Source of the DNA: a virus
Strand: one strand, 5' to 3'
Virus record (IMG/VR): IMGVR_UViG_3300025769_000900
Coordinates: 1 to 22,994 of that record
Length of the DNA stretch: 22,994 nt
Part shown: piece after piece, positions 1,691 to 17,654 of the stretch
Position numbering within the stretch: position 1 is the stretch's first letter
Layout: every line of letters starts with the position of its first letter
The notes under the pieces: model-generated
The model's input: the letters and a program-made list of their open reading frames with translations, nothing else
Databases searched by the model: none
What the model was told of the DNA's origin: nothing
Program-made: the position numbers and the translations under genes

Positions 1691-1978
1691 TTATACTGCG
1701 AAAGACTCACCACAACCACATGATGCAGTTGCGTTTGGGTTTGATACTTTGAGAAAACTCCCACCTAATTCCGTAACATAATCTATTGTACACCCTAATA
1801 TATACATCTCTGCAATAGGGTCTATCCATAAGTTTTCTAGTGTTGGCTCTTTATCTGTTGTATCCCACAAGTATGTAAAACCAGAACAACCACCACTGTT
1901 TATACTCAGGGATACATTTGGTTTACCAACGGACTTTAAATAGTCCTTAGCTGATTCTGTTAAGTTTACCATACTCAT
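1691..1978 (-). CDS. A-type iron-sulfur cluster carrier (IscA/ErpA/HesB-like)
   Basis: Protein of 95 residues covering the whole HesB/IscA domain. The three conserved cluster-binding cysteines are present: Cys31 in SGGCSGF, and Cys87 and Cys89 in the C-terminal CGCGESF motif. Family members receive and deliver Fe-S clusters to apo-proteins in the cytoplasm. Phage-borne copies are known in marine myoviruses and probably sustain Fe-S enzymes during infection; the actual client here is unknown. The N-terminus is shorter than that of bacterial IscA (about 107 residues), but no key residue is missing. Start could be the first ATG or the third codon (MVNLTES). It follows an oxygenase gene, which is consistent with an iron-related accessory cluster. 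Confidence 0.9.
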   Translation of the reverse strand: MSMVNLTESAKDYLKSVGKPNVSLSINSGGCSGFTYLWDTTDKEPTLENLWIDPIAEMYILGCTIDYVTELGGSFLKVSNPNATASCGCGESFAV

Positions 1979-13770: not shown

Positions 13771-14568
13771 TTATCGTATGGTTTTGTATATTTCTTCGTA
13801 TGTTAAAAAATCTACATTCTTAAATTTTGTCCTCACCTTATCTAAAATAGTGTGGACAGGACTCACCCAGATAAATTCTACATCTTTAAACTCTCCGAAG
13901 ACAGTTCCTAGCTGCAAATTCCAGTTTACTGGATTGAACCCTTTCGCATATTCAGGAAGATAATTCTTACTTCCCTTATATATGTTATTTAGTGGACTGT
14001 CATAACTGGATAAATCAAATCCTAACATATAAACTTTTGTAGCACCCTCTTGACACGCAAGGTGCATTGCTGTTGCACCAGCACACCAATCACGAGGGTA
14101 CTCTATGTTCTTTATCTTATTGTTCTCTGTAACCCAAGTAATGTATAAACCTACATCTTTTTCTACTTTAAGTCTGAGGTCATTGTAATCTAAATCTGGG
14201 TTCTTGTCAAGTGCTTCTTTAATATTACTTTCAGCTGTCTGTGGGTCTTTACCTTGTATCACACAATCTGTTCTATCTGTTCTTAATGTTTCATGTATCA
14301 TGTGTGGTTCAAAGTTCATCTTCATTGTTTTCAACAACATCTCATCTACATTTGGTAATACACTCCAATCTGTAAAGTGACATACATTATTTTTTGCATA
14401 ACCAGAACATTCTATTTCTTGTTGCATTCCATAATCTATTGCTACTAAATTATCTACTTTCACATCACGATAGATTGCGTTACAACCCCAAGTCGTAAAG
14501 TTACCCATAAATTGTAGTGCTTCGAATTGATTTCTCGATTCACCATTACCAAAAATAATTACTTCCAT
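13771..14568 (-). CDS. Sialyltransferase/DUF115-like protein, paralogue B
   Basis: Protein of 265 residues, a paralogue of the upstream gene. It begins with VIIFGNGESR (about 4-12), a Rossmann-type nucleotide-sugar loop resembling the GNGPS motif of the CstII-type (GT42) sialyltransferases. TTWGCNAIYRD and LVAIDYG follow, as in GT42 proteins. A second motif, GATAMHLACQEGATKVYMLGFDL (about 164-185), resembles the Gly/Asp region of the same fold. Function is uncertain: glycosyltransferase or an inactive relative (DUF115). It is embedded in the replication block. Its ATG overlaps the end of the upstream paralogue (14559-14568). Confidence 0.6.
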   Translation of the reverse strand: MEVIIFGNGESRNQFEALQFMGNFTTWGCNAIYRDVKVDNLVAIDYGMQQEIECSGYAKNNVCHFTDWSVLPNVDEMLLKTMKMNFEPHMIHETLRTDRTDCVIQGKDPQTAESNIKEALDKNPDLDYNDLRLKVEKDVGLYITWVTENNKIKNIEYPRDWCAGATAMHLACQEGATKVYMLGFDLSSYDSPLNNIYKGSKNYLPEYAKGFNPVNWNLQLGTVFGEFKDVEFIWVSPVHTILDKVRTKFKNVDFLTYEEIYKTIR

Positions 14569-15353
14569 ATATCTAAATCCTTATAAGTTAAAAAAGTTAC
14601 ATTCTTACACACATCAAATTGGTCAACAAGTAGCTGTTCTTCTACAGACTTTGTTACCCAATAAAAATTTACCTTTGGGAACTTTTTAAATACTTTCTTG
14701 TTTTGTGTTTGCCAATTAATACAATCAAATCCATGAGGATTGTCTGCAAATTCTGGATATAAATGACTTAGTGGTTTGTCTGGAATGGATAAGTCAAATC
14801 CCATCATATATACATTCTCTGCACCTTGTTCACAGGCTATCCACATTGCAGTACCACCAGCATTACGACCTCTGAAACTTGTTATATCATTTACCATATC
14901 ATCTTGTAACCAAGTAATATAAAGACCAGCATCTCTCATAATCTTTGAACTATCCTTATACTTTTCTAAATCTGGGTCTGTCCATTTAAGTTTAGGTAGT
15001 TTACCTTTGATTACAACTCTGTCACTTCCATTTCTTTCATTCTCAAAGATGTATTCTTCTGGTACACCTTGTTTTAATAAATCAATTAGTTCTGAGCTGT
15101 TTGTTGAACTCTCTAGTAAGTCTATGTTCTCTTGTATATGCCAGTCTAGAAACCAACACTTGTTTTTAAATGCGTATCCAGATTTATATACTTCGTGTTG
15201 TCTTATATAATCCACACAAACTAGATTGTCTAATTGTACACCTTCACTGAATATACGATTACAACCCCAAGTTGTAGTGTCATTAAATTTTTTAGATAAA
15301 TCCCACTCTTTTCTAGATTCACCATTACCATATACGATTGCATTTTTACTCAT
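14559..15353 (-). CDS. Sialyltransferase/DUF115-like protein, paralogue A
   Basis: Protein of 264 residues. The motifs correspond to those of the downstream paralogue: AIVYGNGESR (5-14), TTWGCNRIFSEG (27-38), LDNLVCVDYI, and GGTAMWIACEQGAENVYMMG (166-185) followed by FDLS. The fold pattern, with a Gly-rich first strand, an N/C-N region after strand 2 and a late GhD strand, matches CstII-type sialyltransferases and DUF115 proteins. The pair probably arose by tandem duplication, with divergence in the middle (residues 80-135). Possible roles are modification of a phage or host surface sugar or of a nucleotide; none is proven. The start overlaps the end of the oxygenase gene (ATGAGTAA). Confidence 0.6.
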   Translation of the reverse strand: MSKNAIVYGNGESRKEWDLSKKFNDTTTWGCNRIFSEGVQLDNLVCVDYIRQHEVYKSGYAFKNKCWFLDWHIQENIDLLESSTNSSELIDLLKQGVPEEYIFENERNGSDRVVIKGKLPKLKWTDPDLEKYKDSSKIMRDAGLYITWLQDDMVNDITSFRGRNAGGTAMWIACEQGAENVYMMGFDLSIPDKPLSHLYPEFADNPHGFDCINWQTQNKKVFKKFPKVNFYWVTKSVEEQLLVDQFDVCKNVTFLTYKDLDIWK

Positions 15354-16274: not shown

Positions 16275-16853
16275 TCACGAATAAAATTGGTTAATAAAAC
16301 TATTAAGTATTACTTTACACTTCTTCTTGTCGTATGTCAAGAACTTTTTATAATCAAACATAAGTTTTTTTACATTAGGCCATATTACATCATTCTTTAA
16401 TTTTTTACTCCATCTCTCTGTAAAATTACTTATGTCATCTAGTATAATCAAAGTTTCTATAGACATTCTTTTACCCAAATACTCTTTGAGTAAAACTGGG
16501 TGTTGTCCCAGTCCAAAGCCTAAAATGTTTGGATTATCTATTTTATATAACTCTTCTTTAAAATTATAAGTCATACTCTGCGTTCTCTTTTTCCATTCAA
16601 CATAATTGTCATCATTAAAATCACCTAACCACCCTTTTGTATTGTGTACAAAATTAGAAACTAGGTAATCTAGTATAACTTCTTTTCTTTTATATTTTCT
16701 TGAAATCTTAACAAAGAATATTCTATCTGTTCTCTTCCAGAACGAATCTCTTGTTGCAGACGATTTACCACCATATTTGATAAAGTCATAATCACCCTTT
16801 CCAAAGTGTGCTTTCAACGCACAGTACATAATATAAACATCAACAGGTTGCAT
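16275..16853 (-). CDS. 59: DNA helicase loader gp59
   Basis: Protein of 192 residues (T4 gp59: 217). It shares the family pattern: VYIMYCALKAHFGKGDYDFIKYGGK at the start, then FWKRTDRIFFVKISRKYKRKEVILDYLVSNFV and WLGDF, then a C-terminal domain with IETLIILDDISN, matching T4's 'FETFILLD'. gp59 binds forks and gp32 and loads the gp41 helicase. The T4 order 33-59-32 is retained here with insertions. The ATG overlaps the stop of a 40-residue gene (TAATG). Confidence 0.9.
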   Translation of the reverse strand: MQPVDVYIMYCALKAHFGKGDYDFIKYGGKSSATRDSFWKRTDRIFFVKISRKYKRKEVILDYLVSNFVHNTKGWLGDFNDDNYVEWKKRTQSMTYNFKEELYKIDNPNILGFGLGQHPVLLKEYLGKRMSIETLIILDDISNFTERWSKKLKNDVIWPNVKKLMFDYKKFLTYDKKKCKVILNSFINQFYS

Positions 16854-16975
16854 TAGTCCATGTATTTTCCGTCTTTAATTAAATGACCTAATCGGTGAGT
16901 AATAACGTGCCAAACTAAACCTATTAGAGTATCTCTTTTGTATACTCCAGCTTTTACTTTTAATTCATATCTCAT
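16853..16975 (-). CDS. 40-residue protein between gp33 and gp59
   Basis: A short open frame with ATG at 16975 overlapping the gp33 stop (ATGA). It ends with TAA overlapping the gp59 start (TAATG). The product begins MRYELKVKAGVYKRDTLIGL and continues VWHVITHRLGHLIKDGKYMD. It is basic, with three histidines and no signal peptide. The double coupling leaves little doubt that it is translated. Function unknown; the position suggests an accessory factor for replication or late transcription. Confidence 0.75.
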   Translation of the reverse strand: MRYELKVKAGVYKRDTLIGLVWHVITHRLGHLIKDGKYMD

Positions 16976-17211
16976 ATCGGTAAACTCGCAACTTTAGGTA
17001 GGAAGTTTAAATCTCTTGCGTTTGCTTCAATCTTCTCTTTTAGACCTTTGGTGATTAGACTTGATACTTTTTCTGGTTCTATTTGATTGTCTTTGCAATA
17101 TAATAATACTGCGTCCATGTGTGTTATTTGTTTTTCTTTTGCAATTCGTTCTATTTCTAGTGAGAACACTTTGGGTGTTCCTAAATCTATTTTAGGTGTT
17201 GGTAAATTCAT
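16972..17211 (-). CDS. 33: Late-promoter transcription accessory protein gp33
   Basis: Protein of 79 residues starting MNLPTPKIDLGTPKVFSLEI at 17211, where GGAG lies 5 bases upstream. A longer frame from 17253 would read through a hairpin and has no ribosome site. The core reads ERIAKEKQITHMDAVLLYCKDNQIEPEKVSSLI then GLKEKIEANARDLNFLP, matching the gp33 pattern of marine T4-like phages as I know it. In T4, gp33 couples the gp55 late sigma factor to the sliding clamp on RNA polymerase. Position just before gp59, as in T4, supports the call. It would act at CTAAATA-type late boxes such as those at 7812 and 7830. Confidence 0.8.
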   Translation of the reverse strand: MNLPTPKIDLGTPKVFSLEIERIAKEKQITHMDAVLLYCKDNQIEPEKVSSLITKGLKEKIEANARDLNFLPKVASLPI

Positions 17212-17228
17212 TATAACTCCATTATGTG

Positions 17229-17252
17229 TGTGGGGATTTTTAGGCCCCCACA
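17229..17252 (-). other. Intergenic hairpin between pqqA-like gene and gp33
   Basis: TGTGGGG and CCCCACA pair around a 10-base loop. No U tract follows on the minus strand, so it may be a processing site or attenuator. It shares the TTGTGGG arm with the hairpin at 16019-16042. Confidence 0.4.
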
Positions 17253-17265
17253 ATATTATTGTACT

Positions 17266-17340
17266 TTATATTTCAGCACAAGCATAACAATTGATTTCTA
17301 AACCAACTGCTACTTCTGTTATTGTAGGTGTCTTCCACAT
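17266..17340 (-). CDS. pqqA: PqqA-like 24-residue precursor peptide
   Basis: A 24-codon frame with AAGGAG seven bases before the ATG. The peptide begins MWKTPTITEVAVG and ends LEINCYACAEI. It shows the features of PqqA, the ribosomal peptide from which PQQ is made: an N-terminal Trp and Pro, then G-x-E-x-x-x-Y, where Glu15 and Tyr19 are the pair that is cross-linked by the radical SAM enzyme PqqE in bacteria. As I recall, the Methylobacterium PqqA also has the VG-E...Y..AEI order; the match is close. No other pqq gene is seen here, so maturation would need host enzymes. It is the first gene after the tmRNA and may be co-transcribed with it. The peptide has two extra cysteines. Confidence 0.8.
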   Translation of the reverse strand: MWKTPTITEVAVGLEINCYACAEI

Positions 17341-17363: not shown

Positions 17364-17618
17364 GTTGGTGAGTATTCTGTTACTAGGAACTCACCCAAAA
17401 CCCTATCCGATTAAGCAGCTAGTGCATAACCTTGAGATGCAAAATTATCGTTTGCATTTACTTTTTTGACTTATAAGGCTGTCAACCCATAACTCTCCAT
17501 TTTACTCCAGCACCAGTCGAACCTATTTCGCCCCCTAATTCGGAACTATCTAGGTTGGTGGAGGCGTGGGGTATCGCACCCCAGTCCTGTATACTCTTGT
17601 TCCACTTCAACAAGTTAT
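17364..17618 (-). ncRNA. ssrA: Two-piece (circularly permuted) tmRNA
   Basis: On the minus strand the acceptor piece comes first. A CTTGTT/AACAAG hairpin (17614-17596) leads to the T arm TGGGG-TGCGATA-CCCCA, then CGCCTCC-A-CCA ending at 17556. After a 20-base linker the coding piece starts at 17535 with GGGGGCG, which pairs with CGCCTCC over 7 bp including a G3:U70 pair, the alanine identity element. It continues through AGGTTCGACTGG (D-like region). A pseudoknot-like fold follows (TTAT/ATAA at 17492-17489 and 17474-17471; TTGAC/GTCAA at 17485-17481 and 17470-17466). The tag frame (17455-17411) reads ANDNFASQGYALAA then stop. A hairpin at 17395-17367 closes the piece; ends are approximate. 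This permutation is typical of alphaproteobacteria. tmRNA rescues stalled ribosomes and tags incomplete proteins. Confidence 0.93.
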
Positions 17619-17624
17619 CTATTA

Positions 17625-17654
17625 TATATACCATACTTGTATTGGTTTTGTCAA
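17625..17654 (-). promoter_or_regulatory. Sigma70-type promoter for the tmRNA
   Basis: TTGACA (17654-17649) and TATATA (17630-17625) are separated by 18 bp, with TGG directly before the -10 (extended -10). The region TATGGTAT-ATAATA is shared with the promoter at 3770-3798. Transcription would start near 17618, just before the acceptor piece of the tmRNA. Confidence 0.7.

Follow-up and report, generated by a model that had tools for sequence, protein, structure and literature searches.

Cyanophages carry psbA for the fast-turning-over D1 protein. In established PQQ chemistry the precursor peptide PqqA is consumed one for one during PQQ synthesis, whereas the enzymes are not. In M. extorquens PqqE together with PqqD cross-links Glu16 and Tyr20 of PqqA (PMC10906245). 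A cell-free extract turns added purified PqqA into PQQ with a yield of 70-80%, and a methylotroph with five pqqA copies, three of them outside operons, has been described (PMC9851590). In Acetobacter, overexpression of pqqAB increased PQQ by 29% only, compared to an eightfold increase for the whole operon (PMC7936290), so that the precursor is not in all cases the chief limitation. In an OM43 isolate the methanol dehydrogenase gene xoxF is the most abundant transcript (PMC5120137).

For viruses, PqqA was reported beside a methanol dehydrogenase in the methylophage population VP_266 from Lake Baikal (PMC7678222), and a 2026 reservoir study counts pqqA, pqqD, and pqqE as viral P-cycling genes (PMC13188868). 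In the open-access literature nothing was found on pqqA in connection with pelagiphages, nor with OM43 and phages. The gene is unmentioned in the papers on the phages Melnitz (PMC9004378), MEP301, and MEP401/402, and PHROGs holds no family matching pqqA. Here we describe pqqA in a 22,994-base fragment of a marine T4-like phage, which as a whole is called the window.

Results

Identification of pqqA in the Window

An earlier note on this DNA had proposed a 24-codon gene with a ribosome site, encoding a PqqA-like peptide, next to a tmRNA. The gene was found at the proposed position and lies on the minus strand, which had not been given. The features of the locus are:

17266-17340, minus strand: pqqA, encoding the 24-aa PQQ precursor peptide MWKTPTITEVAVGLEINCYACAEI (TIGR02107, PF08042, conserved in phage relatives)
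17348-17353, minus strand: Shine-Dalgarno motif AAGGAG, 7 nt before the pqqA ATG (from the sequence)
17411-17618, minus strand: permuted two-piece tmRNA (ssrA) of the alphaproteobacterial type, directly upstream of pqqA (RF04321, 117.8 bits; RF01849, 93 bits)
16972-17211, minus strand: T4 gp33-like late-promoter transcription coactivator, next gene downstream of pqqA (phrog_254, E 1.5e-20)
16275-16853, minus strand: T4 gp59-like DNA helicase loader (phrog_269, E 1.6e-55)
17229-17252, minus strand: hairpin TGTGGGG-loop-CCCCACA without U-tract, just downstream of pqqA (in 8/8 aligned relatives)
17621-17654, minus strand: candidate promoter TTGACA ... TATGGTATATATAAT upstream of tmRNA-pqqA (putative)

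The ORF starts with ATG and ends with TAA, and the claimed ribosome site corresponds to the AAGGAG motif. In profile searches the peptide scored 34.1 bits (E 1.7e-8) against the PqqA equivalog TIGR02107 and 28.5 bits against PF08042, in both cases above the curated cut-offs (20 and 21.1, respectively), which confirms the proposed PqqA identity. It shares with PqqA the length, the Trp-x-x-Pro leader, and the Gly-x-Glu-x-x-x-Tyr core, and the Glu (residue 15) and Tyr (residue 19) show the Glu-x-x-x-Tyr spacing of the cross-linked pair. The plain PqqA motif has a single occurrence in the window, and 1500 first-order Markov copies of the window yielded none. Judged from its sequence and that of its relatives, the window gene is a true pqqA, conserved and under selection.

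On the minus strand the order is tmRNA, pqqA, gp33-like coactivator, a small ORF, and gp59-like helicase loader. The neighboring tmRNA is real; it was not detected by an ARAGORN scan, although it is clear with Rfam RF04321. The stem of the hairpin downstream of pqqA is kept in 8 of 8 aligned relatives while the loop varies, and it is possibly a 3' end or a stabilizing element. In the candidate promoter region TATGGTATATATAATA is invariant across the 8 aligned relatives; a consensus promoter scan of the window gave nothing above chance and did not flag the TTGACA site. The window also encodes a T4-like gp32, which is closest to that of the Methylophilales phage Melnitz.

Further genes of the window include one for an A-type Fe-S cluster assembly protein (1691-1978, minus strand; PF01521, 38.9 bits), and a link of this gene to PqqE, an Fe-S enzyme, would be only speculation. 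Two adjacent similar-looking ORFs (13771-14568 and 14559-15353, minus strand) resemble MptE-like proteins weakly at best and are adjoined by a 2OG-Fe(II) oxygenase-like gene.

Conservation and Selection in Viral Relatives

With gp59 as bait, relatives were recruited without reference to pqqA. An intact pqqA is present upstream of gp59 in 17 of 20 such relatives, and all T4-like relatives with a gp59 identity of at least 80% keep the gene between tmRNA and gp33. The three relatives without pqqA form a distant group with 48% gp59 identity; in the one inspected, a different ORF occupies the tmRNA-gp33 interval. The tmRNA-pqqA order is the same in relatives, and in all close relatives the reading frame, the integrity of which had been put forward as a check, is intact.

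Conservation of the Glu15-Tyr19 pair, also named in the earlier note as a check, was analyzed with a degenerate DNA pattern that fixes part of the leader and a single Cys and leaves the codons of Glu15 and Tyr19 wholly free. This pattern gave at least 120 matches in viral contigs, and the 120 matches listed all encode both Glu and Tyr. By scans with degenerate DNA patterns a lone pqqA was detected in more than 200 other viral contigs, which is a lower bound. The collection comprises at least 211 viral loci, a few of which share a contig, with 116 distinct peptides from Trp on. Among the loci listed, an SD-like motif precedes pqqA in 202 of 211 cases, and the gene stands in 22 separate gene contexts, a large group of which has portal and GroES genes around pqqA. 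A viral PqqA of 60 aa, encoded at L283:1694-1746 (plus strand), carries ~36 additional C-terminal residues that are acidic and rich in Asp, Glu, and Ser.

For pqqA of the gp59-recruited relatives pS was 0.33 and pN 0.059. The 116 distinct viral YACA-type sequences gave a pS of 0.69 and a pN of 0.145, a pair which is biased by the search pattern, whereas the gp59-recruited pair is unbiased. These values argue for strong purifying selection on viral pqqA.

pqqA in Cultured Methylotroph Phages

When annotated phages were searched with a methylotroph-type PqqA, pqqA was found in nine out of nine Methylophilales/Methylophilaceae phage records examined (P19250A, MEP301, Venkman, MEP401, MEP402, and four Melnitz strains), a set which is not a full census and leaves out MEP431-434, Venkman EXVC038S, phimb624-a, him624-a, MG-MTP1, and RSA-MFP1. 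The phages span at least four unrelated groups, i.e., Kyanoviridae (Melnitz), Zobellviridae (MEP401/402), MEP301, and P19250A/Venkman. In none of the nine records is pqqA annotated as such, and in Melnitz it is overlain by an annotated hypothetical protein on the opposite strand. Unannotated pqqA genes in the published methylophage genomes are located at:

MZ577097.1, 76140-76205, plus strand
KX815270.1, 28085-28153, minus strand
MW452941.1, 3316-3384, minus strand
MT375522.1, 9977-10045, minus strand
OP830907.1, 43050-43118, minus strand

The five methylophage peptides compared contain no Cys and, like the Cys type, score high with TIGR02107. No methylotroph phage without pqqA was found using the MEP301 terminase, the Venkman primase, the MEP402 polymerase, and the P19250A recombinase. 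The gene is absent from HTVC008M and Mosig, which are SAR11-infecting relatives of Melnitz, and tblastn with the window peptide and the Cys-type consensus against phage records gave no match of that type. Apart from these, the methylotroph-type PqqA matched only an uncultured spring phage and two contigs that bear the label Acinetobacter phage. The first of the two, the record "Acinetobacter phage MD-2021a" (INPHARED CAKLQF020000010.1), was rejected; it is a bacterial contig and carries ppk and pqqABCDE.

Host-Type PqqA and the Lone Precursor Gene

Cellular PqqA of marine and other Alphaproteobacteria is likewise of the Cys-containing type GLEIN-x-YACAE. The closest cellular peptide, WKTPEIREVAVGLEINCYACAEL, is 87% identical to the window PqqA. 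It comes from two assemblies labelled Pelagibacterales, and in each of them the same locus also contains pqqB-E. Four phage PqqA peptides are identical to peptides in genome assemblies. All 12 tested genomes with a Cys-type PqqA show matches to PQQ-dependent dehydrogenases, and some Cys-type genomes hold several pqqA genes, up to five. In the streamlined marine alphaproteobacterial genomes AG-337-E20 and MED-G10 (HIMB59) two to five copies are present, and several of these loci have no pqqB-E nearby. Host comparison of the RNA genes of the window singled out no host and gave a best match of 86% for its tRNA-Thr and weak matches only for the tmRNA, the alphaproteobacterial type of which fits a host having a Cys-type PqqA.

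All collected loci were searched with PqqB, PqqC, PqqD, and PqqE queries from an Acinetobacter cluster. Homologues stand beside cellular pqqA of the same type at 62 of 118 loci and beside viral pqqA at 0 of the 217 loci listed, in agreement with the lone precursor gene proposed for the window. The viral loci listed thus lack pqqBCDE, which usually accompanies PqqA without being strictly defining. This is no bar to membership in the PqqA family, because orphan pqqA genes occur in methylotrophs (PMC9851590) and in marine Alphaproteobacteria. In 17 longer viral contigs neither PqqD nor a PQQ dehydrogenase was found, and radical-SAM proteins occur in only two of them, one of which is probably bacterial. 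Five distinct cultured methylophage genomes were searched as a whole and contain neither a radical-SAM enzyme nor a PQQ dehydrogenase; therefore, PqqE must be host-derived in those phages. As the window is a fragment, the genome of its own phage could hold other pqq genes.

Discussion

The window pqqA is a host-type gene, 87% identical in its product to a host-type peptide, which is found in a T4-like context and in cultured phages, intact and under purifying selection, as expected for an auxiliary gene. We consider it likely that it is an auxiliary metabolic gene, by which the phage supplies the precursor to host PqqBCDE and so keeps PQQ-dependent dehydrogenases supplied. The phage would make only PqqA, and the host would provide PqqD, PqqE (cross-linking Glu15 and Tyr19), PqqB, PqqC, and a protease to obtain PQQ. 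With host transcription shut down in infection, the precursor would be the first component to be exhausted, since one PqqA is used per PQQ whereas the enzymes are reusable. Phage PqqA, expressed during infection and converted by the host enzymes, may then keep PQQ-dependent alcohol and methanol dehydrogenases loaded and direct energy to phage replication, to the benefit of the phage.

The earlier note had offered two functions, feeding of the host PQQ enzymes or a decoy, and of these the feeding appears to fit best. As a decoy or inhibitor, the phage peptide would occupy PqqD or PqqE, lower host PQQ, and thereby divert metabolism or block a competitor. A lone, short substrate of high similarity could indeed compete with host PqqA for PqqD/PqqE. 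However, none of the copies listed has lost either reactive residue, the constraint on the peptide is that expected of a working precursor, and a peptide which is itself converted to PQQ would not deplete PQQ. In addition, streamlined genomes of the host type multiply pqqA themselves. We therefore regard a decoy as unlikely.

Even less probable is that the gene encodes a different RiPP, which another enzyme modifies, e.g., on Cys, to give a signal, a toxin, or a superinfection factor. The window peptide has two Cys toward its C-terminus, which had been taken as a possible pointer to another modified peptide, and no maturase was seen beside the gene; both would be in line with this. However, cellular PqqA encoded beside pqqB-E carries these Cys as well, so that they are no mark of another product and the pointer is not supported. 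Moreover, the methylophage versions do without any Cys, and TIGR02107 scores high for versions with and without Cys.

To a similarly small degree we would expect a neutral passenger, i.e., a fragment of a host pqq operon that was gained by recombination and is functionless in the phage. The phage peptides closely resemble host ones, up to the four identities with genome-assembly peptides. Against this, the gene is always whole across the 22 contexts and several unrelated phage groups, ribosome-site motifs and strong purifying selection accompany it, no disrupted copies were seen in close relatives, and none of the listed viral loci holds a pqqB-E remnant.

Bacterial DNA misfiled as viral, as is plainly the case for the pqqA-bearing contig MD-2021a and as might be suspected for the 87-kb contig behind L049 with its 11 radical-SAM matches, has next to no probability as a general explanation and is refuted for the window by the T4-like gp32, gp33, and gp59 and for the cultured phages by pqqA in the sequenced isolates Melnitz, Venkman, MEP301, MEP401, MEP402, and P19250A.

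Supply of the consumed precursor to host enzymes thus stays the preferred reading. On balance, we lean toward the broader view that phages of PQQ-dependent bacteria from several unrelated families, by separate host-type-matched acquisitions, carry only the consumable precursor, that nearly all methylotroph phages do so, and that these genes form a class supplying a consumed peptide substrate and not an enzyme. Neither the lone-precursor form nor its breadth or recurrence in methylophages appears to have been reported so far. With only 23-25 codons the gene is easily overlooked. It falls short of the minimum length that gene callers usually apply, and PHROGs offers no family for it, so that surveys of auxiliary metabolic genes which build on these would miss it.

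Much of the one-carbon turnover in surface water runs through PQQ-dependent methanol and alcohol dehydrogenases. If phage pqqA keeps such dehydrogenases supplied, viral infection would be tied directly to one-carbon flux. The gene may also serve as a host marker, linking a virus contig to a PQQ-making host, with the PqqA type hinting at the group. Using cultured pairs, i.e., Melnitz or Venkman on the OM43 strain H5P1, the supply hypothesis is testable now.

Among the known systems, VP_266 is similar in that its phage-encoded PqqA was proposed to enhance PQQ-dependent methanol oxidation (PMC7678222). It differs in that the phage also carries the methanol dehydrogenase, whereas the window and the searched methylophage genomes have the precursor alone, and in that the report concerns a single population. 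Melnitz resembles the window as a T4-like phage with a gp32 of 64% identity, a tmRNA followed by gp33 and gp59, and a pqqA; however, its pqqA lies elsewhere, adjoining a tRNA-Leu, and belongs to the Cys-free methylotroph type. From the PqqA family in general the phage loci differ by being virus-encoded and without pqqBCDE, the tested whole phage genomes also being without a radical-SAM PqqE. A likeness in principle may be cyanophage psbA, where the phage likewise supplies the single consumed part of a host machine, but psbA provides a protein subunit, whereas pqqA would provide a peptide that is chemically converted to a cofactor by host enzymes.
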